A DNA stretch of 20,055 bases from a virus, in the IMG/VR virus record IMGVR_UViG_3300002835_001418, positions 1 through 20,055 of that record. One strand, 5' to 3'. Shown here piece after piece: positions 7,335 to 20,055 of this stretch. A program made the translations under genes and the position numbers. Below the pieces are notes generated by a model. It searched no databases. It had not been told where the DNA came from and saw nothing but the letters and a program-made list of their open reading frames with translations. Position 1 is the stretch's first letter; each line of letters opens with the position of its first letter.

Positions 7335-7409
7335 GGTCTTAAAGTGTTCACGGACGCACATATGTCTGTCACGCATAAAGAAGGGGATCGTTACCCCTTG
7401 AGACCGCCA
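7335..7409 (+). tRNA. tRNA-Asp (GTC)
   Basis: The acceptor GGTCTTA pairs with TGAGACC (one wobble), with discriminator G and encoded CCA. The D stem is GTGT/GCAC with GG in the loop. The anticodon stem TATGT/GCATA encloses loop CTGTCAC, anticodon GTC. The T stem is AGGGG/CCCCT. The T loop is ATCGTTA: the usual T54 and A58 are replaced by A54 and T58, which is unusual. Length is 75 nt. Confidence 0.85.
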
Positions 7410-7440
7410 ATTTTAAATAGTTGTATATAAAGTTTTTAAA

Positions 7441-7524
7441 GCGGAAGTGATGTAATGGTAGCCATGCGGGTCTTAGAAGCCCGTGCCGAAAGGCGTGAGA
7501 GTTCGAGTCTCTCCTCCCGCACCA
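7441..7524 (+). tRNA. tRNA-Leu (TAG)
   Basis: Class II tRNA, 84 nt with encoded ACCA. The acceptor is GCGGAAG against CTCCCGC, with one A-C mismatch at pair 5-68. The anticodon stem CGGGT/GCCCG encloses loop CTTAGAA, anticodon TAG (reads CUA). The variable arm is GCCGAAAGGC, and the T arm GAGAG TTCGAGT CTCTC. Confidence 0.9.
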
Positions 7525-7529
7525 AACAC

Positions 7530-7604
7530 CTGGCGTTAGTACAACGGATAGTACAGGGGATTTCTACTCCCTCGATGTGGGTTCGATTCCTGCACGCCGG
7601 ACCA
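7530..7604 (+). tRNA. tRNA-Arg (TCT)
   Basis: Acceptor CTGGCGT/ACGCCGG, discriminator A and CCA. D stem GTAC/GTAC. Anticodon stem GGGGA/TCCCT with loop TTTCTAC, anticodon TCT (reads AGA, frequent in AT-rich genes). T arm GTGGG TTCGATT CCTGC. Length 75 nt. Confidence 0.93.
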
Positions 7605-7625
7605 AATTATTGATTAGGAGATATT

Positions 7626-7847
7626 ATGAGTAATAAGGTTAAAGCTGTTAAACGTACTGCTGTAATATTTGCAATTATTGTATCTGTACTTTTATTGCTT
7701 GTTGGATTTTTTGCAGAAGCGTCTGCTCAATTTGTAGCATGGACAATCATTATTGGAATAACCGCGTTTTACTTTTGGTTAGTATATTCTGTTATTTTGA
7801 ATCAAATAAATTATAGCGATAGTATAAAAGACAAAGAAGTTGAATAG
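7626..7847 (+). CDS. small two-helix membrane protein
   Basis: 73 aa. Two predicted transmembrane helices: VIFAIIVSVLLLLVGFFAE (about 13-31) and FVAWTIIIGITAFYFWLVYSVIL (about 36-58). The N terminus is basic (MSNKVKAVKR) and the tail charged (KDKEVE). AGGAG at 7616-7620 supports the ATG. It sits between tRNA genes. It could be a holin-like or envelope protein; nothing in the sequence decides this. Confidence 0.65.
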   Translation: MSNKVKAVKRTAVIFAIIVSVLLLLVGFFAEASAQFVAWTIIIGITAFYFWLVYSVILNQINYSDSIKDKEVE

Positions 7848-7852
7848 TATAA

Positions 7853-7889
7853 GGAGTATGGTGTAGGTTAAATCCTACATCCTCCACCA
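7853..7889 (+). ncRNA. tRNA minihelix: acceptor plus T arm only, with CCA (relic or small RNA)
   Basis: GGAGTAT (7853-7859) can pair with ATCCTCC (7879-7885), 6 of 7 pairs. Discriminator A and CCA follow (7886-7889). Between them lies a T-arm-like hairpin, GTAGG TTAAAT CCTAC, with a 6-nt loop. No D arm or anticodon arm exists. It is either the remnant of a tRNA deleted internally or a short structured RNA. It begins 5 nt after the stop of the upstream gene and ends 6 nt before the next tRNA. Confidence 0.5.
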
Positions 7890-7895
7890 AAATAT

Positions 7896-7988
7896 ACTCC
7901 GGTAGTGTAATGGTAGCACGACGAGATTTATAACCTCGATTCGCTAGATAGGCGGTTAGAGAAGGTTCGAGTCCTTCCCGGAGTACCA
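7896..7988 (+). tRNA. class II-like tRNA, apparent anticodon TAT (Ile), identity uncertain
   Basis: 93 nt. A perfect 7-bp acceptor ACTCCGG/CCGGAGT is followed by ACCA. D stem GTGT/GCAC. Anticodon stem CGAGA/CCTCG has an A31-C39 mismatch and loop TTTATAA, giving TAT (codon AUA). T arm GAAGG TTCGAGT CCTTC. Between anticodon and T arms lie 22 nt holding a hairpin (TCGCT/GGCGG, loop AGATA), so the variable region is long as in Leu, Ser or Tyr tRNAs. An Ile anticodon on a class II body is unusual. Confidence 0.75.
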
Positions 7989-8004
7989 AATTAGAAGGTA
8001 ATAA

Positions 8005-8214
8005 ATGTTTAAAGTATATTGGACTGATCATCAGGACATGTCGTATGGCAAACAATTTGAAAAAATGACAGAGGCTTTGAAGTTTACACAGGATCTACGT
8101 AACGTGTATCAGCGTAAATTTGTTACCATGGTAAGTGAGAACCCTGACTGCACTAGTCTATTGGGTGTGAGCGAAGTTAATGCTGATTATGATTTTAAAA
8201 AACGCAGAACCTAA
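8005..8214 (+). CDS. conserved small phage protein, function unknown
   Basis: 69 aa. Visible features are MFKVYWTD, EKMTEALKFTQDLRN, KFVTMVSENPD and the end DYDFKKRR. This layout (short strand, helix with TQxLRN, strand with VTMxSENP, basic end) recurs in marine T4-like phages among small early genes; no function is known to me. AAGG lies 6 nt before the ATG. It ends convergently with the DnaJ-domain gene, and the two stop codons share bases (TAA on + at 8212-8214, TAG on - at 8213-8211). Confidence 0.7.
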   Translation: MFKVYWTDHQDMSYGKQFEKMTEALKFTQDLRNVYQRKFVTMVSENPDCTSLLGVSEVNADYDFKKRRT

Positions 8215-8780
8215 CTTATTGCTACTAATTCTTCAAGGCCATAAAAATAGTCTTTAAGTATTTCCAATTCAAGATTACAAATTTTAATACGTGTATTAAA
8301 ATCTTCAAATTCCTGTTTACGTTGTTTTATTTGAAGTTGAACAACATCTAACAGTATATTGCGATTTTTATTTTTCGAATTTATCCTACGTATAACTTTT
8401 TCTAGTTGTAATATATATTGCTCACATACTATAATATTGTTAGCCATATCAACTTTAATTTGATTAATTTGGCCAACCATAATAGTAATTAGATCATCGT
8501 TTTCGGGATTAAAATTCGGAACAATTGCATGTAACATTTGTGTGATATGATCTAATGCCGATTGTTTAATATTTTGATTTGAATCCGCTTCACCTAATAG
8601 ATCATATTCTTTTCTGCGAATAGGATCAATCAGAATTTCGTATGCTAATTTTATGCGTTTGAATACTTCCTCGTCCCCACCTTTGTCGGGATGATGAATT
8701 TGCGCTAAAGATCTAAATTTGAGTTTTATCTCATCTTCAGACGCATCAATTGATATTTCTAATTCTATATATGGATTCAT
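8211..8780 (-). CDS. DnaJ-domain (J-domain) co-chaperone-like protein
   Basis: 189 aa from an ATG at 8780 on the minus strand. A J domain fills residues 1-62: PYIELEISIDASEDEIKLKF, then the HPD motif (30-32) in HHPDKGG, and FKRIKLAYEILIDPIRRKEYD. The remaining 125 residues are helical and coiled-coil-like (INQIKVDMANN, QLEKVIRRINSKNK, LQIKQRKQEFEDFN), with no Gly/Phe or zinc region. J domains stimulate the ATPase of host DnaK, and the coiled-coil part may recruit a phage substrate. It is the only minus-strand gene in the window. It diverges from the carboxypeptidase gene, with only 34 nt between the start codons. The frame extends further upstream, but that part is the antisense of the peptidase gene. 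No Shine-Dalgarno site is visible. Confidence 0.88.
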   Translation of the reverse strand: MNPYIELEISIDASEDEIKLKFRSLAQIHHPDKGGDEEVFKRIKLAYEILIDPIRRKEYDLLGEADSNQNIKQSALDHITQMLHAIVPNFNPENDDLITIMVGQINQIKVDMANNIIVCEQYILQLEKVIRRINSKNKNRNILLDVVQLQIKQRKQEFEDFNTRIKICNLELEILKDYFYGLEELVAIS

Positions 8781-8814
8781 GTTAAATATTTTTAAGTATT
8801 TATTAGGAGTTAGA

Positions 8815-9735
8815 ATGATATTTGCAACAACCAAGTCTCGCTGGTGTAGTGGCAGCACAGCAGTCTCCAAAACTGTTAGTCGCGGTTCGATTCCGTGGCG
8901 GGGCGCCATAGTTTTATTCACATCTTTAATTTTATGTTGTGCCAGTGCATACGCTAAACCGCACAAACATATTAAAAAGAAAAGAATGATTCGTACAGAT
9001 ACTACGAGTGTTCTAGTATTCAATGATACTACAAATACACATGAGTATAATAAGAATGCAAATAAAGTTAGGCCTTTTGCAAGTGTTACTAAATTAATGA
9101 CAGCAATGGTATCGTTAGATAGTGATAAAGATTTATCTAAAGTGATGCAAATTAATTCGAATGTCGGCGGATCATTACCTAGAAAAAAGAATTTTACCAG
9201 ATACGAAATTCTAAGTGCTATGCTAGTTAAAAGTGATAATTCCGCGGCAGAGACTTTGGCTAATGCATATCCCGGCGGAAGAAGAATGTTCATAGCACAA
9301 ATGAATCGAAAAGCTTTAGAGTTTGGTATGATTAGTAGTTCTTTTGACGATCCCTCCGGTATAAGTGCTAACAATCAAGCAACTGCTATAGATATAGGAA
9401 CAATGGTTGCAAAAGCTGCATCATATCCTATTATACGTGAGATTAGCACAAAGAAACAAATTGAAATTGAAACAAGTTATAAGAAGAAAATTAGAACAAT
9501 TACGTTAAACAATACAAATAGACCAGTATTATTTGAGTTTAACACCATTGTTGTTAGTAAAACAGGATTTACTAGCCATGCGGGATATTGTCTGGCTTTA
9601 GCAGTAGAACGGCATGGTCAAATGTATTCTGTCGTAATACTTGGAGCCAAAGACAAATATGACAGAATACGCAAAGTAGAAGATATTATGTATAATCATA
9701 TCATAGATAGGCGTAAAAAAGAGCTTGACGCCTAG
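8815..9735 (+). CDS. D-alanyl-D-alanine carboxypeptidase-like (peptidase S11), 5' end overlapping tRNA-Trp
   Basis: 306 aa from ATG 8815, which has AGGAG at 8805-8809 with a 5-nt spacing. All three penicillin-binding motifs are present: SVTK (Ser90, Lys93), SDN (140-142) and KTG (249-251). It is therefore a likely active serine DD-peptidase that trims peptidoglycan stem peptides in the periplasm. A signal peptide (IVLFTSLILCCASAYA, cleavage near residue 47) is preceded by a 31-residue basic extension. That extension is largely encoded by the tRNA-Trp gene lying in frame at 8835-8908. Alternative starts are ATA or GTT just after the tRNA, or ATG 8986, which would lose the signal peptide. The C-terminal beta domain of cellular PBP5 is absent. 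It may remodel the wall during infection or prevent superinfection. Confidence 0.87.
   Translation: MIFATTKSRWCSGSTAVSKTVSRGSIPWRGAIVLFTSLILCCASAYAKPHKHIKKKRMIRTDTTSVLVFNDTTNTHEYNKNANKVRPFASVTKLMTAMVSLDSDKDLSKVMQINSNVGGSLPRKKNFTRYEILSAMLVKSDNSAAETLANAYPGGRRMFIAQMNRKALEFGMISSSFDDPSGISANNQATAIDIGTMVAKAASYPIIREISTKKQIEIETSYKKKIRTITLNNTNRPVLFEFNTIVVSKTGFTSHAGYCLALAVERHGQMYSVVILGAKDKYDRIRKVEDIMYNHIIDRRKKELDA
8835..8908 (+). tRNA. tRNA-Trp (CCA)
   Basis: Acceptor GTCTCGC/GCGGGGC (two G-T pairs), discriminator G and encoded CCA. D stem GTGT/GCAC. Anticodon stem GCAGT/ACTGT with loop CTCCAAA, anticodon CCA. T arm CGCGG TTCGATT CCGTG. Length 74 nt. It lies entirely inside the reading frame of the S11 peptidase, between its ribosome site and its signal peptide. 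Confidence 0.93.
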
Positions 9736-9753
9736 CGAAAAAGGTGTTATAAT
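9725..9753 (+). promoter_or_regulatory. sigma70 promoter for the RNase H-like gene
   Basis: TTGACG (9725-9730), 17 bp, TATAAT (9748-9753) with TGT before it (extended -10). The -35 lies inside the last codons of the peptidase gene. The context GCTTGAC is shared with other promoters in the window. Confidence 0.8.
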
Positions 9754-9777
9754 TATATTAGACTCTCCTAAAAGACA

Positions 9778-10251
9778 ATGATGAAGCGATTAGATATCCA
9801 AGAAGTTAAAGCATTTATAGATATGCAAACACAGGAGACTAAAATCTATCTGGGAGCAGACTCTGAAAGATATAAACGTAACGGTAAATGGTATGCGGAT
9901 TATACTATAGCAGTAGTAATACACATCGATGGGTGCCATGGATGTAAAATTTTTGGTGAAGTTCAAACAGAAATAGACTACGACGCTAAAAGTAGCAAAC
10001 CTTCACTTCGTTTGATGAATGAAGTATATAAGGTAGCAGAATTGTATCAAAAACTCATTGACGTAATTTGTGATCGACACGTAGAAATTCATTTAGATAT
10101 TAATCCAAATGAAAAGCATAATAGCAACATCGTAATACAACAAGCAATAGGATACATTAAAGGTATGTGTAATGTGATTCCGTTGGTAAAACCTAATGCG
10201 TTTGCTGCATCATATGCAGCAGATAGATTAAAGTCTGTACTGGCGGTATAA
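9778..10251 (+). CDS. YkuK-like (DUF458) RNase H-fold protein
   Basis: 157 aa (ATG 9778; ATG 9781 is equally possible). An RNase H-like first strand carries Asp28 (IYLGADSERYKRNGKWYAD), followed by YTIAVVIHI and GCKIFGEVQTEIDYD. Then come LRLMNEVYKVAELYQKL and the second acidic strand VEIHLDINPNEKHNSN (Asp107). The end is CNVIPLVKPNAFAASYAADR. The order matches the YkuK family found in Firmicutes and in many cyanophages and marine T4-like phages, where it is annotated as a predicted nuclease without known substrate. An RNA or DNA hydrolysing role is plausible because acidic residues are kept. Its own promoter lies just upstream, and a tRNA-Thr follows 5 nt after the stop. Confidence 0.85.
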   Translation: MMKRLDIQEVKAFIDMQTQETKIYLGADSERYKRNGKWYADYTIAVVIHIDGCHGCKIFGEVQTEIDYDAKSSKPSLRLMNEVYKVAELYQKLIDVICDRHVEIHLDINPNEKHNSNIVIQQAIGYIKGMCNVIPLVKPNAFAASYAADRLKSVLAV

Positions 10252-10256
10252 TATAC

Positions 10257-10330
10257 GCCCCCTTAGTTAAATGGTATAACAGTTGATTTGTAATCATCAA
10301 TTGGCAGTTCGATTCTGTCAGGGGGCACCA
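10257..10330 (+). tRNA. tRNA-Thr (TGT)
   Basis: Perfect acceptor GCCCCCT/AGGGGGC with ACCA. D stem GTTA/TAAC. Anticodon stem GTTGA/TCATC with one T-T mismatch and loop TTTGTAA, anticodon TGT. T arm GGCAG TTCGATT CTGTC. Length 74 nt. Confidence 0.92.
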
Positions 10331-10344
10331 TTTGGGAGATAAAT

Positions 10345-10575
10345 ATGGGATTAGTAGAAGCAGGAACTTTTTTGGGAGCAACAATTCTTTTTGGTTTGGG
10401 AATTGCAGTCATTGGTGTTGTGGTTATTTTTCTAAATAACATAATCCATAAATTCTGGAAACCTTTGAATTGGTTTAAATTTTTAGATTTCAATGACACA
10501 AAAATGTACCCTGTTCGTGTCCATAAAGAACCTACATTTGATGATATCAAACCAACTAAGACTAATAAGGAGTAA
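10345..10575 (+). CDS. small single-pass membrane protein
   Basis: 76 aa. A long N-terminal hydrophobic segment (GTFLGATILFGLGIAVIGVVVIFLNNII, about residues 7-34) is followed by HKFWKPLNWFKFLDF, an aromatic, interfacial stretch, and a polar tail. GGGAG at 10334-10338 gives the start. Similar small proteins (hydrophobic stretch, then a W-K-P-x-x-W motif) occur in other marine T4-like phages, with no known function. It is separated from the next gene by 2 nt and probably co-transcribed. Confidence 0.7.
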   Translation: MGLVEAGTFLGATILFGLGIAVIGVVVIFLNNIIHKFWKPLNWFKFLDFNDTKMYPVRVHKEPTFDDIKPTKTNKE

Positions 10576-10577
10576 CT

Positions 10578-10730
10578 ATGGAAAAGACTTTACTAAAAGA
10601 AGATGGACCTAAGTGTGGATGTGGTCGTAGTCCGTCGGGGTATTGTATTGGTTGGCATAATTTATCTGAAGAAGCATATGCGGATAAACTAGAACAGTAT
10701 AAAAAAGATACTGGCGAGTATAATAAGTAA
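10578..10730 (+). CDS. 50-aa Cys-rich (CxC..C..H) mini-protein, possible metal or Fe-S binder
   Basis: ATG at 10578 with AAGGAG at 10567-10572; stop TAA at 10728-10730. The core KCGCGRSPSGYCIGWHNLSEE has Cys13, Cys15, Cys23 and His27. This spacing (CxCx7Cx3H) resembles the CDGSH iron-sulfur motif, but with CIGWH in place of CDGSH. The rest is a short helix with many charged residues. It could bind Zn or a 2Fe-2S cluster. Comparable mini-proteins with CGCGRSP..CIGWH seem to recur in marine phages. tRNA-Gly follows 5 nt downstream. Confidence 0.65.
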   Translation: MEKTLLKEDGPKCGCGRSPSGYCIGWHNLSEEAYADKLEQYKKDTGEYNK

Positions 10731-10735
10731 GATTT

Positions 10736-10809
10736 GCGGGGTTGTCATATTGGTTGTGTCCTAGCCTTCCAAGCTAGTCAAAGGAGTTCGATTCTCCTAC
10801 CCCGCTCCA
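10736..10809 (+). tRNA. tRNA-Gly (TCC)
   Basis: Perfect acceptor GCGGGGT/ACCCCGC, discriminator T and CCA. Anticodon stem CTAGC/GCTAG with loop CTTCCAA, anticodon TCC. T arm AGGAG TTCGATT CTCCT. The D stem GTCA/TGTC has one mismatch. Length 74 nt. Confidence 0.93.
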
Positions 10810-10813
10810 GTTT

Positions 10814-11089
10814 ATGAGAAAACAAAAAGACGAATCATATGAGAATTGGTCAGAGAGAGTTCGTCTTTTTGAATATGACATTGCGATCAAACAAATATCT
10901 ACAGGGATAGATGTGGAAATTGTTTTAGAATCCATGTCAAAAAGAATACAAGTAAAATTGTTACATTTTTTACTAAAAGAAATTAATGAAAACGTAAAAA
11001 TATATTATGATCCAATTACTTCAAAGAACCGATATGAAGAAACGTATTTACGGCGGACTAAACCTGCTGATCATATTTTGGATAACTAA
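10814..11089 (+). CDS. conserved phage protein with GluTR-dimerisation-like helices
   Basis: 91 aa. An N-terminal helix (ESYENWSERVRLFEYDIAIKQ) is followed by STGIDVEIVLESMSKRIQVKLLHFLLKEI and a C-terminal part ending DHILDN. The SKRIQxKLLH segment recalls the helical dimerisation region of glutamyl-tRNA reductase. Cyanophage homologues are sometimes annotated that way, but no catalytic domain exists here, so the name should not be read as haem synthesis. It starts 4 nt after the CCA end of tRNA-Gly, with no clear Shine-Dalgarno site, so RNase processing of the tRNA would leave an almost leaderless message. Confidence 0.7.
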   Translation: MRKQKDESYENWSERVRLFEYDIAIKQISTGIDVEIVLESMSKRIQVKLLHFLLKEINENVKIYYDPITSKNRYEETYLRRTKPADHILDN

Positions 11090-11092
11090 TGC

Positions 11093-11121
11093 TTGACAAT
11101 TTTAGTAGAATGTTATATAAT
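11093..11121 (+). promoter_or_regulatory. consensus sigma70 promoter before tRNA-Leu
   Basis: TTGACA (11093-11098), 17 bp, TATAAT (11116-11121). The -35 is embedded in TGCTTGACA, 3 nt after the upstream stop. It should drive tRNA-Leu(TAA) and rubrerythrin. Confidence 0.87.
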
Positions 11122-11137
11122 ATGTTTATTAATTAAT

Positions 11138-11221
11138 GCCCGGGTGGTGAAATGGTAGACACAAGAGACTTAAAATCTCTCGCCGAAAGGTGTGCCGGTT
11201 CGAGTCCGGCTCCGGGTACCA
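11138..11221 (+). tRNA. tRNA-Leu (TAA)
   Basis: Class II tRNA, 84 nt. Acceptor GCCCGGG/TCCGGGT with G-T pairs at both ends, then ACCA. Anticodon stem AGAGA/TCTCT with loop CTTAAAA, anticodon TAA. Variable arm with GCCGAAAGGTG. T arm GCCGG TTCGAGT CCGGC. Confidence 0.93.
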
Positions 11222-11244
11222 TTTTTATATGTTAGGAGATTGAG

Positions 11245-11688
11245 ATGAGTAATATGAGCGTAAAAGGAACTAAAACTGAGGAATGTCTGAAGGATGCATT
11301 TGCTGGAGAATCAAAGGCAAATCGTCGATATCTATATTTTGCAAACATGGCAGATATTGCAGGCGCACAAGACGTAGCTAGTGTTTTTCGTCATACTGCA
11401 GAAGGCGAAACCGGGCATGCGCATGGGCACATGGAATATCTAGTTAATGGAGGATCGGGCGATCCCGAAACAGGGTTGCCCGCAACTAATATTATTGAAG
11501 CGCTTGAATCTGCCATCTCAGGCGAGACTCATGAATATACGGATATGTATCCTGGTATGGCAAAGACTGCTCGAGATGAGGGGTTTGAAGAAATTTCAGA
11601 TTGGTTTGAAACTTTGGCAAAAGCTGAACGTAGTCACGCTGGCAAATTTAAGCGTACACTTGATGCGTACAAAGCAGAAATTAATTAA
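11245..11688 (+). CDS. rubrerythrin (ferritin-like diiron protein without rubredoxin domain)
   Basis: 147 aa. It has the four-helix diiron ligands of rubrerythrin: Glu22 in [13 protein letters not shown], Glu55/His58 in [10 protein letters not shown], Glu94 and Glu97 in [11 protein letters not shown], and Glu128/His131 in [10 protein letters not shown]. The C-terminal rubredoxin (CxxC) domain of classical rubrerythrin is missing, so an external electron donor is needed. The family reduces hydrogen peroxide in the cytoplasm. In a phage it is a host-derived auxiliary gene, likely protecting the infected cell from oxidative stress. AGGAG at 11234-11238 selects ATG 11245. The consensus promoter at 11093 lies upstream with tRNA-Leu in its leader, and tRNA-Met follows 13 nt after the stop. 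Confidence 0.93.
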
Positions 11689-11701
11689 GTAGAAGGTTTT
11701 A

Positions 11702-11780
<79 letters not shown>

Positions 11781-13059: not shown

Positions 13060-13067
13060 TATAAATA
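13060..13067 (+). promoter_or_regulatory. T4-type late promoter, exact consensus
   Basis: TATAAATA is the T4 late promoter -10 consensus recognised by gp55-type sigma. No -35 box is seen, as expected. It lies 28 nt before the first late gene and is followed after 10 nt by the leader motif ATATTCTAATGGA (13078-13090). Confidence 0.8.
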
Positions 13068-13095: not shown

Positions 13096-14109
13096 ATGAT
13101 AACTTCATTCAAATCTTTTCTCATAGAAGAAGCTAGAGAAACAGGAAAAGCATCCGATGCAGAGGGTAAATTGCATGAACTACTAACGGGTTTGCATTTT
13201 AACAAGGGAAAGCACGTAGAATCTTACCGTGAAGAAGGTCAATTGCCCGAAGATATACATAACAAATTGAAGGATGAGGTTAGTCCCGAAACCTACAATC
13301 GCATTAGTAAACATGCTAAAGAAATGGCAGGCCATTTACATGATTTTATCAAATCTAGCGGGTTTAAAGGTAAAATAGATAAGACCGCTTGGACTTCTCA
13401 AACTAAAGATATCGAGCATTTTACTGGCAAAAAAGATCCGAACAATGAGTCAGATTTGATGACTAGTTTGGTACATGGAGTCGGGTCAACTAAACCAAAA
13501 GGTACAGTAGAGCATCTTGGTTTTAGTATGAAATATGCAAATAATGCCCCTACCCTAAAAAATAAAACTCCTAAAACCTTAGCTGATACATATGGTGCAG
13601 ACCACACTCAGTTATCTAACCCGCATGAACAACATATAGCAGCGGTTAGAAAAGTGTTAGGTGCTAACAAAACTACATCTGCCGCAGAAATGCATACTAG
13701 ATATAAAGCATTAAGAGGTACAGATGTAGGGGATGCTATAGAAAAATCTTCGCATTCTTCCAGAGTAGAAATGATCAACAGATTACATAAACATTTAAGT
13801 AAAATGACACCCGATGAATTGCATGCGCAAGTAATGAACCATATTGCAGGTCCAACGAATACAAAAGTATTAATGGCAAGCACAAATTCGGACGGTAAAC
13901 ATAGTATTGTTGATACTAGAGAACATTACAATAAAATTTTATCGGATCACCGAGGTGAATTATCAGTTAAAAAGGGTGAAGGCACAACAATGTCTATCAC
14001 CGGTAAAGGAGGAAAACCATTGTTAAATATTCAAGCAGTAAACAAAGGTAGACCAACCAAGACTCCCGAATTTATAGCTAAACCTGGCGCAAGTCTTTTA
14101 AAGCATTAA
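13096..14109 (+). CDS. predicted capsid-targeted internal protein; possible PD-(D/E)XK-like nuclease
   Basis: 337 aa. The N terminus MITSFKSFLIE|EA resembles the T4 capsid targeting peptide, with a prohead-protease site (LxE) after residue 11. The body starts with a helix, SDAEGKLHELLTGLHFNKGK. Later it has ESDLMTSLVHG (118-128) and HLGFSMKYANNAPTLKN (140-156). The D...(G/x)xSxK layout is reminiscent of PD-(D/E)XK nuclease cores, but that call is tentative. The C-terminal part (SITGKGGKPLLNIQAVNKGRPTKTPEF) is beta-rich. It is the first gene after the late promoter, and the next gene follows 1 nt after its stop. His and Lys are very frequent. If packaged, it would enter the host with the genome; this is inference. 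Confidence 0.7.
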   Translation: MITSFKSFLIEEARETGKASDAEGKLHELLTGLHFNKGKHVESYREEGQLPEDIHNKLKDEVSPETYNRISKHAKEMAGHLHDFIKSSGFKGKIDKTAWTSQTKDIEHFTGKKDPNNESDLMTSLVHGVGSTKPKGTVEHLGFSMKYANNAPTLKNKTPKTLADTYGADHTQLSNPHEQHIAAVRKVLGANKTTSAAEMHTRYKALRGTDVGDAIEKSSHSSRVEMINRLHKHLSKMTPDELHAQVMNHIAGPTNTKVLMASTNSDGKHSIVDTREHYNKILSDHRGELSVKKGEGTTMSITGKGGKPLLNIQAVNKGRPTKTPEFIAKPGASLLKH

Positions 14110-14110
14110 T

Positions 14111-15283
14111 ATGAAAACATTTTTAAATTTTCTATCAGAAGAAGTTGCTGAAAAATCTAAAGCAACAAAACATTTAACTCATCTTGGGGGTGAAGCGCAC
14201 TTCTTTGGTAAAAAAGAATCAGACGCAGATGTATCTAGATTGGAAGAATTACACAAACACCTATCCGGAAATCCATCTGCTACCAAAGCAGTAGTTATTA
14301 AAGCAGATGGATCACCTTCTTTCGAAATGGGATATGTTAAAAATCCTAAATCCGGTAGTAAAGAATTTGGTGTGGCATATAAAGGTGCTACAAAGGGGTA
14401 TGCATTTAATCAAGACGATGTAAAAGAGAAATTTGGACACTCTGCAGGATTACAATCTAAAATGGGGCAGTTACTAGAACATGGTAAAAAGATTCTGTCA
14501 CCGTTACATGGGGTGTATCAAGGCGACTTCATGGGCAGTAAAAAAGATAAAACAATTAAACAAGAAGGCGATGAGATAACTCATAAAGAAAATTTAATTA
14601 AATATCATTATCCTGCAAATTCGGAAGAGGGCAAGGCAGTAAAACGAGCAAAAATAAGTGTGTCATTGCATACTAGAATCGACACGCCTGAACCGGAATA
14701 CGAAGTAGATACGTCAAAATTTCATAGCAATTCAGATGTACATATTTTTCATAATAAATTAAACAAAAAGAATGTTGATTATAATTTAGATGACAGGCAA
14801 GATTTTGCAAAACATCTTTCCAAAGCAAAAGAACATTTAGGCAATATTAAGCAACATGATCAATTAGTAGAAGGGCACACTCCTCATCTACAAACATATA
14901 TCAATAAGACAGTTAGAACAGGTGCATCTCCTAGCACCGCTGGTTATGCGTCGCACCTAGATGAAGCAATGCAAAAAGAAGTAGAAAAAGTTAAAAGACC
15001 AGAAACAAAGATGCGCAAATTTAATGAAAAATTGGAAATGCTGCATCATGTAGAAAAGAATAAAGAACATTTTGGCGAATTATTCAATGCACATAAACAT
15101 TTAGATAAGGCAAAGAATATTTTATTAAAGACTTTAGAAAACTCAGGCCAAAATCAAAAGCATACTATTGACGGCAAACCAACAAAACCTGAAGGATTTG
15201 TGGTTGGATACAAAGATGGATCCGTCGCTAAGGTAGTAAATAGAAGCAAAGAAGGTTTCTCTGGACAGAATTTAAACAAATGA
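14111..15283 (+). CDS. predicted capsid-targeted nucleotidyltransferase/ligase-like protein
   Basis: 390 aa. The N terminus MKTFLNFLSE|EV is a capsid-targeting-like peptide with an LxE cleavage site. The next part fits the covalent nucleotidyltransferase (DNA/RNA ligase) fold. Motif I is KADGSPSFEMG (Lys64 as candidate nucleotidyl acceptor). FGVAYKGATKGYAF follows, then GVYQGDFMG (134-142), EGFVVGYKDG (361-370, like motif IV) and SVAKVVNRSKEGF (371-383, like motif V with Lys374). A His/Lys-rich helical insert occupies about 200-350. Similar proteins in marine T4-like phages are known only as a domain of unknown function. Ligation or capping is inferred from the motifs. It overlaps the next gene by 4 nt (ATGA). 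Confidence 0.7.
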   Translation: MKTFLNFLSEEVAEKSKATKHLTHLGGEAHFFGKKESDADVSRLEELHKHLSGNPSATKAVVIKADGSPSFEMGYVKNPKSGSKEFGVAYKGATKGYAFNQDDVKEKFGHSAGLQSKMGQLLEHGKKILSPLHGVYQGDFMGSKKDKTIKQEGDEITHKENLIKYHYPANSEEGKAVKRAKISVSLHTRIDTPEPEYEVDTSKFHSNSDVHIFHNKLNKKNVDYNLDDRQDFAKHLSKAKEHLGNIKQHDQLVEGHTPHLQTYINKTVRTGASPSTAGYASHLDEAMQKEVEKVKRPETKMRKFNEKLEMLHHVEKNKEHFGELFNAHKHLDKAKNILLKTLENSGQNQKHTIDGKPTKPEGFVVGYKDGSVAKVVNRSKEGFSGQNLNK

Positions 15284-15576
15284 AAACATTCAAAGAATAC
15301 TTAGACGAAGATTGGCAGGATAATAAGTATAAAAATCCTGAAGGCGGATTAACTAAGGCCGGTGTTATGGCTTACAGACGAGAAAATCCGGGTAGTAAAT
15401 TACAAACTGCAGTTACTACTAAGCCATCAAAATTAAAACCGGGTAGTAAAGCTGCAAACAGAAGAAAATCTTTTTGCGCCCGTATGGGAGGAATGAAATC
15501 CAAATTGACTTCTGCAAAAACAGCAAATGATCCTAATTCAAGAATAAATAAAGCTTTGCGTAAATGGAATTGCTAG
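15280..15576 (+). CDS. small basic conserved phage protein with capsid-targeting-like leader
   Basis: 98 aa. The leader MKTFKEYLDE|DW is nearly the consensus of the cassette. The rest is very basic: GGLTKAGVMAYRRENPGSKLQ, then RRKSFCARMGGMKSK and the end RINKALRKWNC. This layout (GGLxxxG..AxRRExGxxL...RRKSFCARMxGM...ALRKWNC) is a well-recurring small protein of marine T4-like phages without known function. The basic body suits binding to packaged DNA, and the conserved Cys residues (about 67 and 98) could bind metal or form a disulfide. It is translationally coupled on both sides: the start overlaps the upstream stop, and the stop shares a base with the next GTG start. Confidence 0.8.
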   Translation: MKTFKEYLDEDWQDNKYKNPEGGLTKAGVMAYRRENPGSKLQTAVTTKPSKLKPGSKAANRRKSFCARMGGMKSKLTSAKTANDPNSRINKALRKWNC

Positions 15577-16175
15577 TGAAAACATTTAAGGCATATTTAG
15601 AAGAATCAAAAAAACATTCGTTACATATTTTTGATATAGATGATACGTTACTGCATACTACTGCAAAAATTCATGTTAAAGACAAACACGGTAATACAGT
15701 GCAAACATTATCTAATCAAGAATTTAATGATCATCATCTAAAACCAAATCACAGTTACGATTTTGGCGAATTTAGAAATGCTGAGAAATTTAGTAAAGAA
15801 TCAACACCTATACATAGTATGATAAATAAAGTAAAGTTGGTCTCCAATCAACCGGGACACCATGTCATTTTTAACACGGCTAGAGCAAACTTTGACGATA
15901 AACATAAATTCTTAAATACTTTCAAAAAACATGGAATCGATATGAGTAAGATACATGTTATACGTGCAGGAAATATCAATAAAGAGGGAACTCCTGCAGC
16001 AAAGAAAGCATTAGTTATTCATGGATATATAAACAAGCACAAATATAACGATGTGCATATGTACGATGACAGTAAATCTAATTTAAAAACTTTTTTGGAT
16101 CTACGATCTAAGCATGCATCTACTAAGTTTCATGCACATTATGTACAAGGTAATGAATCTAAACCCTTAGAATAA
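15576..16175 (+). CDS. HAD-superfamily phosphatase with capsid-targeting-like leader (GTG start)
   Basis: 199 aa from GTG 15576. An ATG at 15564 in the same frame would add MELL before the leader. I prefer GTG because it gives MKTFKAYLEE|SKK, aligned with the neighbouring leaders, and because TAGTG links it to the upstream stop. HAD motifs: FDIDDTLLHTT (motif I, Asp20 and Asp22), HVIFNTARANFDD (motif II, Thr), a Lys in KKALVIHGYI, and HMYDDSKSNL (motif III/IV acidic pair). These enzymes transfer phosphate through an aspartyl intermediate. The form resembles the phosphatase half of T4 polynucleotide kinase and related phage HAD proteins, so a nucleic-acid 3'-end or nucleotide substrate is possible. 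It is the fourth gene of the late cassette. Confidence 0.82.
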   Translation: MKTFKAYLEESKKHSLHIFDIDDTLLHTTAKIHVKDKHGNTVQTLSNQEFNDHHLKPNHSYDFGEFRNAEKFSKESTPIHSMINKVKLVSNQPGHHVIFNTARANFDDKHKFLNTFKKHGIDMSKIHVIRAGNINKEGTPAAKKALVIHGYINKHKYNDVHMYDDSKSNLKTFLDLRSKHASTKFHAHYVQGNESKPLE

Positions 16176-16233
16176 GAATAGCATATTTAATAGGGTACAT
16201 AGCAAATGATAACATCATGTCAATAGGTAGTCA

Positions 16234-17910
16234 ATGAAAAGTATTAAAGAAAAAGAGCTTTTGGCTAAATTTGCCAAATCGTTAGGTCAAGAAATCGATC
16301 CGGCATTAATTAAAGAGGTCGAATCATTTAATTCCATTAAAAAAGATGCGCACGCTTCAATTAAGAAAAATGCGTTAAATGACCTAATGGAAGCGTTTAA
16401 AACTGCTAATTTGGAAAAGGAAATAATTGAAATTATTGAATATCCTTTGCCACCTACGTTAGATGAAGTATTGTCTATTTTAAATGAACCAGACACGGAG
16501 ATACTAAATGAGTTGGTACAAAAGAACACCATTGAAGAATCCTCCATTATTGAAGAAATACCCATCCCCGCCCCAACCATCGAAAAAACTCTTGCCGAAA
16601 GAGCCGCCCAATTTATAAGTGAAGCACCGAAAGATAGTTTTCAGCAGCCTGACCCCGATCCAGTTTCAAAGAATTTTGAAGACATTCAACGTAAATTAAA
16701 ATTTTTAGAAGCAACAATTGGAAAAATTGCAGTGGCTGGACCAGGATCCGGTGAAACTAAATTTAGGATGTTGGACGATGTTGATAGATCATCTATAGGA
16801 AATACAGATCAAGTTCTTAGATGGAACCCCGATCCACGCGGTGATGCGTATGGTAAATTTTTCTTTGGTCAAGTTAGCGGCGATCAAGGACCTATTAGAT
16901 CAATGCGGTATGACACAAATGGATATGGTGCAAATGCAAATGTTGTTCCTGGGTTAACTGCATGGAATACATCTCAGGATTGCTTAGACATACATCATAA
17001 AGATGGATCGGTATTGCAAGTTGGACTAGAACAACATATACGAGTGTATAATAATACTAGTAATGTATTATACAATGGTACGTTTGTACAATTTGCCGGA
17101 GTCGTTGATACTGGGGCGAACGTGCAATTTGAGGCATGTAATTTTGTTGTTACGTGTCAACCGTATATCTCAAATACTACCGCAGATCAACTGTACACGG
17201 TTGGAGTTTTAACAACTGACGTACTCCCCAATACTATAGGTAGAGCAACGACATTTGGTGAAGTTAGGAATCTTAATACTACCGGAAATTTAGTTAATGA
17301 AGTTTGGTATAGTGGAGATTTGCTATGGGGACATCCTGGTATCCCCGGTGCACTTACAAAAGTCCGCCCAACTTCTCCAAATGCAGTTATTTCTGTGGCG
17401 GCAGTTATACATGCAGATGTGGGAGATGGTATACTGTTAGTGAGACCAACTATCGAATATCGAAGACCATATGGCGTGTTCTCTAGTAACGTATCACAAA
17501 ATGCAAACGTCATAAACACGCCGTATGCTATTTCATATAACACGGTTAATTTTTCGAATGGTATATTTGCAAACGGGGCAAATATCTTAATGAATGGCAA
17601 TTATGGCCTATATGATATTCAATATAATTTACAATTAGTATCTACGAATGCAGCTGCAAAAGACGTATGGGTCTGGGCAAGAAAAAACGGATTGGATATT
17701 CCTCTTTCCGCAAGAAGAGTATCAATTACTGGAAATGGAGTAGAAACAGTTCTTGCTGGTAACTTTTTTGTTAGTATGGTATTCAATGATAGGTTTGAAA
17801 TATATTGGGCAGCAAATTCTACTGATGTTAGATTGGATGCTCCTCCTAGTACTACTTTTTCTCCTGCAATACCATCTGTTCGTATATCCGTAGCTCAAAT
17901 AGCTAGATAG
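16234..17910 (+). CDS. virion structural protein (fibre or decoration type) with C-terminal jelly-roll-like domain
   Basis: 558 aa. The N-terminal 120 residues are acidic and helical with a Pro-rich stretch (EEIPIPAPTIEKT). Then come AERAAQFISEAPK, a short coiled coil (NFEDIQRKLKFLEATIGKI) and GPGSGETKFRMLDDVDRSSIGNTDQVLRWNP. That last block is common in marine T4-like virion proteins. The middle is beta-rich (VYNNTSNVLYNGTFVQFAGVVDTGANVQF). The last 130 residues (GNYGLYDIQYNLQLVST, VWVWARKNGLDIPLSARRV, FFVSMVFNDRFEIYWAANS, PSVRISVAQI) resemble C1q/TNF-like jelly rolls of fibre tips and decoration proteins. It has no MKTF-type leader. FISE|A at 127-130 is a possible prohead protease site. The ribosome site is weak (TAGG). 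Confidence 0.75.
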   Translation: MKSIKEKELLAKFAKSLGQEIDPALIKEVESFNSIKKDAHASIKKNALNDLMEAFKTANLEKEIIEIIEYPLPPTLDEVLSILNEPDTEILNELVQKNTIEESSIIEEIPIPAPTIEKTLAERAAQFISEAPKDSFQQPDPDPVSKNFEDIQRKLKFLEATIGKIAVAGPGSGETKFRMLDDVDRSSIGNTDQVLRWNPDPRGDAYGKFFFGQVSGDQGPIRSMRYDTNGYGANANVVPGLTAWNTSQDCLDIHHKDGSVLQVGLEQHIRVYNNTSNVLYNGTFVQFAGVVDTGANVQFEACNFVVTCQPYISNTTADQLYTVGVLTTDVLPNTIGRATTFGEVRNLNTTGNLVNEVWYSGDLLWGHPGIPGALTKVRPTSPNAVISVAAVIHADVGDGILLVRPTIEYRRPYGVFSSNVSQNANVINTPYAISYNTVNFSNGIFANGANILMNGNYGLYDIQYNLQLVSTNAAAKDVWVWARKNGLDIPLSARRVSITGNGVETVLAGNFFVSMVFNDRFEIYWAANSTDVRLDAPPSTTFSPAIPSVRISVAQIAR

Positions 17911-17926
17911 CCAAACAATCAAAACA

Positions 17927-17934
17927 TATAAATA
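17927..17934 (+). promoter_or_regulatory. second exact T4-type late promoter
   Basis: TATAAATA, 27 nt before the ATG at 17962, again followed after exactly 10 nt by ATATTCTAATAGA (17945-17957). Same arrangement as at 13060. Confidence 0.8.
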
Positions 17935-17961
17935 ATAGAACATTATATTCTAATAGATCTC

Positions 17962-19824
17962 ATGAATTTCAAAGACTACATTAAAGAAGAGTCAACCAAA
18001 AAGGACACGATTGTTGTCTTAAATGGTCGCATGAATCCAATGACTCGTGGTCATGAGGATAATATTAAAGGAATGACCGGATTCGCAAAAAAGCATAATG
18101 CCGATCATTTGGTTATCGCCTCTCATTCGCACGATAATAAAAAGAATCCACTTGCGCCTGAGCAAAAATTAAAACATTTGCAAAGAGCTTTTCCTGACGT
18201 AAATATTAAAACTTCAGACAAGCAACATCCTACGATTTTTCATCAGTTATCAAATATTCACGATCAGGGATATAAGCATGTAGTTCTTGCTAGCGGCGCA
18301 GATCGTACAGAAGATTACGACCGAATTAAAGAATATAACGGCAAACATGGTAAACATGGTTATTATAACTTTAAATCCATCTCTACTGCAAGTACCGGTG
18401 AAAGAACTGAAGGCATATCTGGGACGGATATGCGAAATCATGCACTCAATAATAATTTTAACGAATTTAAAAAGAATCTTCCTACAAAACTTGCGGCAAA
18501 TACTGAACATGCGAAGGAAGTATTTAATGATGTAAAGACAGGATTACAACCTAAGAAAAAAGTAACTGAAGATTATGAAAATCCTTATAGATTTGATTGG
18601 GGTACTCCTGGCGGTACAAAATATATGCAAAATATAACTCCTAACAAACCTACGGAATGCGTAACACCCGGGGAAACTTGGAGTCAAGAAAAGGGAATGT
18701 GTGTCTCTATTAGAGAGGCATACATTAATGACGAAATTTTTAGATTAAATGAAGTTGTAGAAACTACTAATGGGGATATTGGTCCTATTGTTTTTAGAGG
18801 ATCTACATACGTTACTATGAAATTAGAAAATGGACAAACAGTTAAGCATTGGTTAAAAGATATTGTTGAACATACTGGTGAATCATTTAGCTCAAAAATA
18901 TCTGAACCAGTAATAACATATAAGAAAAGATTTAGTGAGCAAAAAGCAGCTCTTCTAATGTCTAAAGAGGCATTATCCGAAATGTTAAATACACAAAAAG
19001 AAATAACATATCAAGATTATAAAACAACAAATCTTCATATGTGTGCAGATGCATCTAAGCAACTTAAAGAGTTGATGGCAAACTCTAAACTTAATCCTAA
19101 ATTTGTACTGCAGGCAATACAAGCAACAGATCAATATTTAGGAATAGAAAAAGCTGCAATGAAAAATGGCTATGCAGATCAAGAAACAGTGCATAATTTT
19201 ATAATGAAATTTGCAATTGCACATGATACTTTAAATATGTTAGGTTATCCGGACAAAGAACTCGCATATATGGAAAAGCATTTGACAATTATGTCAAATT
19301 TAAGTATGCACAAGGATACAAACTTTGCAAACGAGATTGGCACAACTATTAATACTTATGGGGCAGAAGACACATCTGAAGGTGTTGATACTTCAGACTA
19401 TGCAATAAAAATAGATGCATCAGGAAGAAAACGTAAAGTTCATCCAAATCGAATAATAAGCGATAGACAAGTTGTAAAAGAAACTAGAAAGACTGAACCT
19501 ATGAAAAATAATTATAATACGTTCCGCAAAAAGATACAAGAGATTTATGAGCCAGATCCACCGACTCATAGTAGAGATATTAATTTCTCAGATATCAAAG
19601 ATATATTTCATGGAATAGATAAACCTATTCATGATGAGACCATTGACGGAAAACCGGTAGGTATGGTATCTTTTAAGACCTTTATGAATGAGCCAATGAA
19701 TAAAAAATTGGCAGCTGCGCATGAAAAAGATAGACAAGATGTGCATAGAGATCAAGTAGAAATTAGTTCGCAACATTCTCCTTCATACAAAATGATGAGA
19801 AAAGTAACCCAATTGGAGCCATAA
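17962..19824 (+). CDS. multidomain HxGH-type nucleotidylyltransferase with capsid-targeting-like leader
   Basis: 620 aa. The leader MNFKDYIKE|ES has an IxE cleavage site. A nucleotidylyltransferase domain follows (about 15-180): VVLNGRMNPMTRGHEDNI with TRGH as the HxGH-like motif, HLVIASHSHD, LAPEQKLKHLQRAFPDV, and EGISGTDMRNHAL as the ISSTxxR-like motif. Such domains join a nucleotide to a phosphate acceptor (NMN, FMN, phosphopantetheine or a polyol phosphate); the substrate is unknown. The long C-terminal part has no known domain: ENPYRFDWGTPGG, TPGETWSQEKGMCVSI, a small beta block (IGPIVFRGSTYVTMKLENGQTVKHWL), a helical region (about 320-460), and a terminal segment with MVSFKTFMNE (568-577) that looks like an internal copy of the leader. 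It has its own late promoter; the next gene starts 1 nt after its stop. Confidence 0.8.
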   Translation: MNFKDYIKEESTKKDTIVVLNGRMNPMTRGHEDNIKGMTGFAKKHNADHLVIASHSHDNKKNPLAPEQKLKHLQRAFPDVNIKTSDKQHPTIFHQLSNIHDQGYKHVVLASGADRTEDYDRIKEYNGKHGKHGYYNFKSISTASTGERTEGISGTDMRNHALNNNFNEFKKNLPTKLAANTEHAKEVFNDVKTGLQPKKKVTEDYENPYRFDWGTPGGTKYMQNITPNKPTECVTPGETWSQEKGMCVSIREAYINDEIFRLNEVVETTNGDIGPIVFRGSTYVTMKLENGQTVKHWLKDIVEHTGESFSSKISEPVITYKKRFSEQKAALLMSKEALSEMLNTQKEITYQDYKTTNLHMCADASKQLKELMANSKLNPKFVLQAIQATDQYLGIEKAAMKNGYADQETVHNFIMKFAIAHDTLNMLGYPDKELAYMEKHLTIMSNLSMHKDTNFANEIGTTINTYGAEDTSEGVDTSDYAIKIDASGRKRKVHPNRIISDRQVVKETRKTEPMKNNYNTFRKKIQEIYEPDPPTHSRDINFSDIKDIFHGIDKPIHDETIDGKPVGMVSFKTFMNEPMNKKLAAAHEKDRQDVHRDQVEISSQHSPSYKMMRKVTQLEP

Positions 19825-19825
19825 T

Positions 19826-20055
19826 ATGAATGAATTACAGATAGCACTCAAAAAGGTATTAGCAAATACATTCGTAATGTATTTTAAAACTCATACATAT
19901 CATTGGAATGTAGAAGGAATGTTTTTTCCGCAACTACATGAATTCTTTGGAAATTTATATGAAGAACTATATGGTGCGGTAGATCCTATTGCAGAACATA
20001 TTCGTGCAATGGATAGTTATACTCCTTTATCGCTAGTTGAATTAAAAGGATTATC
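19826..20055 (+). CDS. dps: Dps-like ferritin (3' end outside window)
   Basis: The 76 visible codons read NELQIALKKVLANTFVMYFK, then HTYHWNVEGMFFPQLHEFFGNLYEELYGAVDPIAEHIRAMDSYTP. The HWNVEG..F..LHEFF...Y......VD.IAE.IR pattern is the ferroxidase signature of Dps mini-ferritins, which bind and protect DNA and oxidise Fe2+ with peroxide. The start is 1 nt after the upstream TAA, so it is coupled to the nucleotidylyltransferase and expressed late. No capsid-targeting leader is present. A phage Dps together with rubrerythrin suggests protection from oxidative damage. The C terminus and length cannot be judged. Confidence 0.9.
   Translation, partial: MNELQIALKKVLANTFVMYFKTHTYHWNVEGMFFPQLHEFFGNLYEELYGAVDPIAEHIRAMDSYTPLSLVELKGL

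Follow-up and report, generated by a model that had tools for sequence, protein, structure and literature searches.

Five neighbouring genes begin with one short peptide

Why do five genes of a virus, whose products are otherwise unrelated, begin with versions of a single short peptide? The genes lie at positions 13096 to 19824 of a 20,055-nucleotide stretch of viral DNA (hereafter the window). The window is identical at 20053 of 20055 positions to nucleotides 42527–62581 of a 66-kb IMG/VR record (G001), which encodes T4-type gp22 (truncated where the contig ends) and gp23, together with DNA polymerase, uvsX and gp41; it is a piece of an uncultured T4-like phage. T4 internal proteins begin with MKTYQEFIAE, which targets them to the prohead and is cut after (I/L)xE by the prohead protease gp21. 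On this likeness, the original prediction proposed that the five genes form a late cassette of enzymes packaged in the capsid and perhaps injected with the DNA. We compared G001 with three longer records of relatives (G004, G007 and G008; 126, 190 and 222 kb).

All five genes are on the + strand. Gene 1 (13096–14109; 337 aa, mature pI 9.4) begins with MITSFKSFLIE (13096–13128), with a predicted cut after E11. Gene 2, coding for DUF6267 (14111–15283; 390 aa, mature pI 9.3), begins with MKTFLNFLSE (14111–14140; predicted cut after E10), and gene 3, coding for DUF6321 (15280–15576; 98 aa, mature pI 10.6), with MKTFKEYLDE (15280–15309; predicted cut after E10). The HAD-family phosphatase (DxDxT) of gene 4 (15576–16175; 199 aa from a GTG start, mature pI 9.6) carries (M)KTFKAYLEE (15576–15605; predicted cut after E10), while the NMNAT/cytidylyltransferase-like protein (TxGH, SxTxxR) of gene 5 (17962–19824; 620 aa, mature pI 8.3) carries MNFKDYIKE (17962–17988; predicted cut after E9). 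A further gene within this range (16234–17910, + strand) has no leader in the window or in any of 17 homologs, codes for an acidic protein (pI 5.0) and serves as an internal negative control.

The five leaders share M..F..[FY][LI].E, with the spacing ahead of the motif shifted by one residue in those at 13096 and 17962, and all end in (L/I)xE, the gp21 cleavage motif. They stand where they had been reported, the sole correction being that gene 4 has a GTG start codon at 15576, which overlaps the stop of the preceding gene (TAGTG); the first ATG in its frame is at 15564 (MELLVKTF...). In a near-identical contig, whose adjoining DUF6267 protein is 97% identical, ATG replaces this GTG and gives MKTFKSFLTE. 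Cassette neighbours overlap or abut. The protein bodies behind the leaders are unrelated, as had been claimed: BLASTP among the five found nothing better than E 0.7, and in the gene-1 slot different phages carry unrelated bodies behind the same leader. AlphaFold gave low confidence to the N-terminal 19–20 residues of both DUF6267 and gene 1, fitting a detachable piece; its model of the leader is a short helix.

The leader pattern is concentrated at gene starts in one block

We defined a strict pattern as a few residues followed by an aromatic, two residues, an aromatic or Leu, Leu or Ile, any residue and Glu. Across G001 and its three relatives, 17 of 801 ORFs matched at ATG or GTG starts, whereas among 4831 internal start codons 5 did (Fisher p 4e-11; given their relatedness, the four records are not independent). 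All 17 fall within a single block per genome. The peptide might have been equally common elsewhere in these genomes, which would have spoken against a targeting role; no ATG or GTG start outside the cassette matched. Two TTG starts outside it did match, and a slightly wider pattern adds one 65-aa gene outside the cassette. A 65-aa gene starting MYNQ[FY]ILEAK (G007:C1:55113-55376 and G008:C1:144520-144714) is conserved in both records, distant from the cassette, and possibly codes for a further packaged protein. Among IMG/VR loci that we gathered, the strict pattern occurs on 79 distinct proteins, compared to 1 of 5506 internal start codons.

As a positive control, the strict scan of T4 returned only gp61.1 and two proteins starting MKTYQEFIAE, which from their length and place we take to be IPII and IPIII. 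SPO1 and pelagiphage HTVC033P, both lacking the S77 protease, gave no strict matches. A relaxed pattern was dropped, as it also matches other starts in T4 and SPO1. Since the peptide is short and looser versions do match by chance in these two phages, one might ask whether the matching starts are a chance likeness of short N termini rich in lysine and phenylalanine. The counts refute this explanation, to which we give next to no weight: a single internal start in 5506 matches, the 17 ATG/GTG matches lie in one block per genome, and the leader is present in 24 of 24 DUF6267 homologs.

The motif also turned up at other positions. A scan for a C-terminal form revealed no general pattern; the 69-aa virion protein gp279 of S-SCSM1 (L153:7627-7836) ends in KKKRTFKEFLEYIE, with the motif at its C- rather than its N-terminus. 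In a family starting with SRWSxW (L217, L218, L219 and ORF12 of S-CREM2 at L085:7704-10313), [FL]xxF[LIM]xEA is displaced to about residues 18–27.

Conserved leader residues coincide with those required in T4

In the capsid targeting sequence (CTS) of T4 IPIII, residues 4 and 7 are needed for targeting, and residues 8 and 10 for processing (PMC9026906). The fixed positions of the leaders coincide with these, with aromatics at 4 and 7, I/L at 8 and E at 10. The claimed match in pattern and cleavage motif thus extends to the residues mapped as essential in T4. For retention counts, homologs were chosen by their bodies alone, ignoring the leaders, which answers the problem of selection. The leader stands on all 24 DUF6267 homologs so chosen, with F as the invariant first aromatic and F or Y as the second, followed by L, any residue and E. 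Entropy at the positions in between is about 2 to 3 bits, and the stretch downstream varies, with insertions and deletions. The leader is also present in 6 of 6 HAD phosphatase homologs, in 15 of 21 transferase homologs of near relatives (absent in the other 6) and in 7 of 13 gene 1 homologs, two more of which have one extra residue ahead of the motif.

In neighbouring leaderless families the leader occurs in 0 of 17, 0 of 17, 0 of 19 and 0 of 8 homologs. A ferritin/Dps-like gene (19826–20053 of the window), directly 3' of the cassette in near relatives, has it in 0 of 17. The family that follows this gene (EEIDxLIESLEWEDV; L014:13631-14071 and homologs) carries the full leader in 9 of 17 members, while others have a worn version (MISFREYDVNE), as though they were gradually losing targeting or cleavage. 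Two pelagiphages without S77 have the DUF6321 protein, and in both the leader is absent. Syn1 encodes gp21, yet its DUF6267 and transferase homologs have no leader.

The conserved L/I of the leader is spelled by seven codons, and therefore selection acts on the protein and not on the RNA. An RNA- or DNA-level cause of the common start was ruled out on the basis of this codon diversity.

Two leader genes follow late promoter boxes, and leader proteins are basic

The sequence TATAAATA is the T4 late-promoter box. In the window it occurs on the + strand at 13060–13067, 28 bp before leader gene 1, and at 17927–17934, about 27–29 bp before leader gene 5. With 2 sites compared to 3.9 expected, the box is not over-represented overall and only its placement is informative; the simulated chance that both sites fall 20–40 bp ahead of leader genes is 1e-5. 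In G004, G007 and G008, TATAAATA also precedes gp22, gp23, the cassette and genes that we take, from their sequences, to be putative tail sheath and tube genes. Two leader genes thus lie behind the same box as head and tail genes, in line with their description as late genes; judged by these promoters, their products would be present when heads assemble.

In the window, the mature leader proteins have basic pI values, from 8.3 to 10.6, compared to 5.0 for their leaderless neighbour. Across the four records, 16 of 17 mature leader proteins have a pI >8, as opposed to 19–27% of the remaining proteins. T4 internal proteins are likewise basic (PMC9026906).

Relatives encode the prohead protease

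A gp21-type protease had been suggested as something to seek in related phages, and an S77 (gp21) prohead protease is encoded by all three of the long relatives. It is also present in six isolates including T4. The G004 protein, the one aligned in full, conserves His85 and Ser140 of T4 gp21, which we take to be catalytic. The window's virus presumably encodes gp21 as well, at a locus just beyond the contig end. LxE stands at the propeptide boundary of the capsid protein in T4 (FGSFLTE/A), S-CREM2 (GLLTE/A), S-SCSM1 (GSFLAE/A) and the window's virus (RQALFE/TP), where the slash marks the cut; the T4 site alone is experimentally known and the others are predicted. The cut site of T4 gp23 carries the same F..FL.E/A string as the leaders.

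Leader-bearing proteins are found in virions of related cyanophages

We compared the leaders with three published cyanophage proteomes, none of which had been produced with this question in mind. In S-CREM2, 52 of about 219 proteins were assigned to the virion (PMC10665884). The three S-CREM2 proteins with strict leaders, a SAM hydrolase (MKDFDSFLEE), an APH/ChoK kinase (VKRFDAFLTE) and a cytidylyltransferase (MKNFSSFLTE), are all in virions, as are ORF13 and ORF136, which carry a looser leader (PMC10665884); the chance of all five being detected is 6e-4. The Cas9-like ORF12 was also detected in virions, and its motif (RFASFMAEA) starts near residue 19. S-SCSM1 has one strict match, the NMNAT, which was detected in virions, while one loose match, gp030 (MKTFKQFMSE), is absent from the virion list (PMC9602691). 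S-SM1 likewise has one strict match, T4-GC190, which is a virion protein according to the text of the paper (PMC3037559). Thus, 5 of 5 strict-leader proteins in the three phages were detected, with a combined chance of about 4e-4. A later, blind check concerned the S-CRM01 kinase, which is cited as a virion protein and proved to start with MISFDQFLSE.

As for the cassette proteins themselves, homologs of gene 5 (17962–19824) are among the proteins detected in cyanophage virions, and gp029, an S-SCSM1 virion protein, ends in DUF6321. In the available portions of the published cyanophage proteomes we found no proteome evidence for DUF6267, the HAD protein or gene 1. Four leaderless neighbours of the S-SCSM1 NMNAT were also detected in virions, and therefore the leader is not the sole way in. 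It is neither necessary for packaging, as these neighbours and Syn1 indicate, nor always accompanied by detection, as with gp030.

The proteome authors allowed for such enzymes being either cargo or co-purified contaminants, and the S-SCSM1 virion list includes a translation repressor (PMC9602691). In the accessible parts of their reports they name no targeting signal, and among open PMC papers we found none connecting capsid targeting sequences with cyanophages. Altogether, the proposal that leader-bearing proteins are packaged is well supported by detections made by others in relatives of the window's virus. Because similarly tagged enzymes are known from particles of related cyanobacterial phages, the leader probably marks proteins that are delivered into the host along with the DNA.

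The cassette occupies a conserved position

The block lies after gp41/mazG in Syn1, S-SM1, S-SCSM1 and S-CRM01, and it ends ahead of gp61 and nrdA in the first three of these. In S-SCSM1, five consecutive genes of this block all code for virion proteins. In the window, nine tRNA genes (Asp, Leu, Arg, Ile, Trp, Thr, Gly, Leu and Met; 7335–11780) lie between gp41 and the cassette. T4 gp61.1 (NC_000866 18966-19130), annotated as hypothetical, has a CTS-like start, MKTFKEFIKED, and is located between genes 41 and 61, the interval in which the cyanophage cassette sits. The arrangement looks old.

The predicted cargo includes two recognizable enzymes

The description of the locus as a cassette of enzymes is secure for two of the five proteins, the transferase and the HAD phosphatase, and not for the other three. 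By its family match and its retained TxGH and SxTxxR motifs, gene 5 belongs to the NMNAT/cytidylyltransferase superfamily, and gene 4, a HAD-family phosphatase, retains DxDxT. In DUF6267, KxDG and EGxVV (EGFVV-like) motifs are invariant, as in ATP-dependent ligases, and the best fold match is RNA editing ligase 1, a weak hit (E 0.04). A profile comparison with T4 RnlB was negative, and the ligase reading therefore rests on the motifs and the weak fold match, which together make DUF6267 possibly ligase-like, a lead only. PADLOC gave one marginal match for DUF6267, to Csx21 (E 0.001). DUF6321 is a small, very basic domain. In gene 1, E28, D120 and S144xK146 are invariant in nine homologs, resembling PD-(D/E)XK; a Foldseek search with a model of moderate confidence gave no significant match, and gene 1 is a possible PD-(D/E)XK-like nuclease. 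Sequence searches against solved structures with DUF6267, the HAD protein and the transferase domain returned nothing useful.

A capsid delivery model and its alternatives

We consider it highly probable that the five peptides are capsid targeting leaders of the T4 type. According to this model, the cassette genes would be transcribed late, and during prohead formation the leader would dock each protein onto a gp22-type scaffold core via its two aromatic residues. The gp21 protease would then cut after (L/I)xE, leaving the basic mature protein among the packaged DNA, from where it would be ejected into the next host upon infection. The cargo would comprise the basic DUF6321 protein, the possibly ligase-like DUF6267, the HAD phosphatase, the NMNAT-like transferase and the gene 1 protein, and would most likely exert its effect during the first minutes of infection, either by countering host defences or by altering the state of nucleotides and nucleic acids. 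There are precedents for injected cargo: IPI* blocks a restriction enzyme and Alt modifies RNA polymerase.

Two other explanations deserve consideration. As a short helix, which is how it is modelled, the leader might be amphipathic and direct proteins to a membrane, or to another late assembly such as the tail, baseplate or portal rather than the head interior; the proteomes derive from whole particles and would not tell one location within the virion from another. We regard such a destination as improbable, given that the (L/I)xE end and its fixed spacing agree both with the motif of the prohead protease and with the corresponding site in the capsid protein of these phages, that the cargo is basic like the DNA-embedded internal proteins of T4, and that the DUF6321 homologs of the two phages without S77 are leaderless.

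A slightly lower probability still attaches to the proteins being cytoplasmic late enzymes, whose common start either serves as a signal for translation initiation or is an N-terminal cap that spreads among genes, and whose detection in virions reflects abundant contaminants. Contamination was raised by the proteome authors themselves, and overlapping or abutting genes would ease recombination at gene starts. Against this reading, seven codons spell the conserved L/I, the invariant residues coincide precisely with those of the T4 CTS, and virion lists are enriched in leader proteins (5 of 5 strict matches, p about 4e-4).

The capsid targeting model has close counterparts. IPI, IPII and IPIII of T4 share with the cassette proteins a leader of about 10 residues that is aromatic at positions 4 and 7, has I/L at position 8 and E at position 10, and ends in (L/I)xE, as well as basic mature proteins with unrelated bodies, T4-type gp22 and gp23, and gp21, here in relatives. 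However, the T4 proteins are small, whereas the window's cargo includes larger proteins with enzyme motifs (199–620 aa) in one syntenic late cassette; cleavage and packaging are known for T4, while the window's virus is read from its genes. T4 Alt, an injected ADP-ribosyltransferase, is likewise a head-carried, gp21-processed enzyme with early action on the host, but it is an unrelated enzyme, is processed at both ends and has another N-terminal sequence. Further counterparts are the virion NMNAT, cytidylyltransferase (T4-GC190) and kinases reported for S-SM1, S-SCSM1, S-CREM2 and S-CRM01, which carry the same leader. The cyanophage transferase is homologous to that of the window and lies in the same syntenic block; those virions were analysed, whereas the window's phage is uncultured. 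In the phiKZ-like giant phage SPN3US, N-terminal propeptides of head proteins are also cut by a gp21 homolog after a short motif ending in E, but they are mostly >100 residues long and a T4-type scaffold is not confirmed there (PMC5694885).

Targeting of internal proteins is already known from T4; what the comparisons made here suggest as new is its extension to enzymes in Kyanoviridae and their relatives. NMNAT-like enzymes, kinases and a SAM hydrolase have turned up in virions studied by several groups, for whom it was puzzling how these proteins enter or whether they are contaminants, and the leader offers a mechanism. More tentatively, and with the balance of probability against so broad a reading, Kyanoviridae and their uncultured relatives may use ten-residue leaders as a general, swappable system of delivery from the head, in which this late cassette would inject a nucleic-acid repair and NAD-making kit (ligase-like DUF6267, HAD phosphatase and NMNAT) that counteracts host defence just as infection begins. 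The ten-residue leader would predict from sequence which proteins enter the host, and it makes the question checkable through one N-terminal peptide per protein. The uncharacterised DUF6267 and DUF6321 thereby become candidates for injected functions in early infection.
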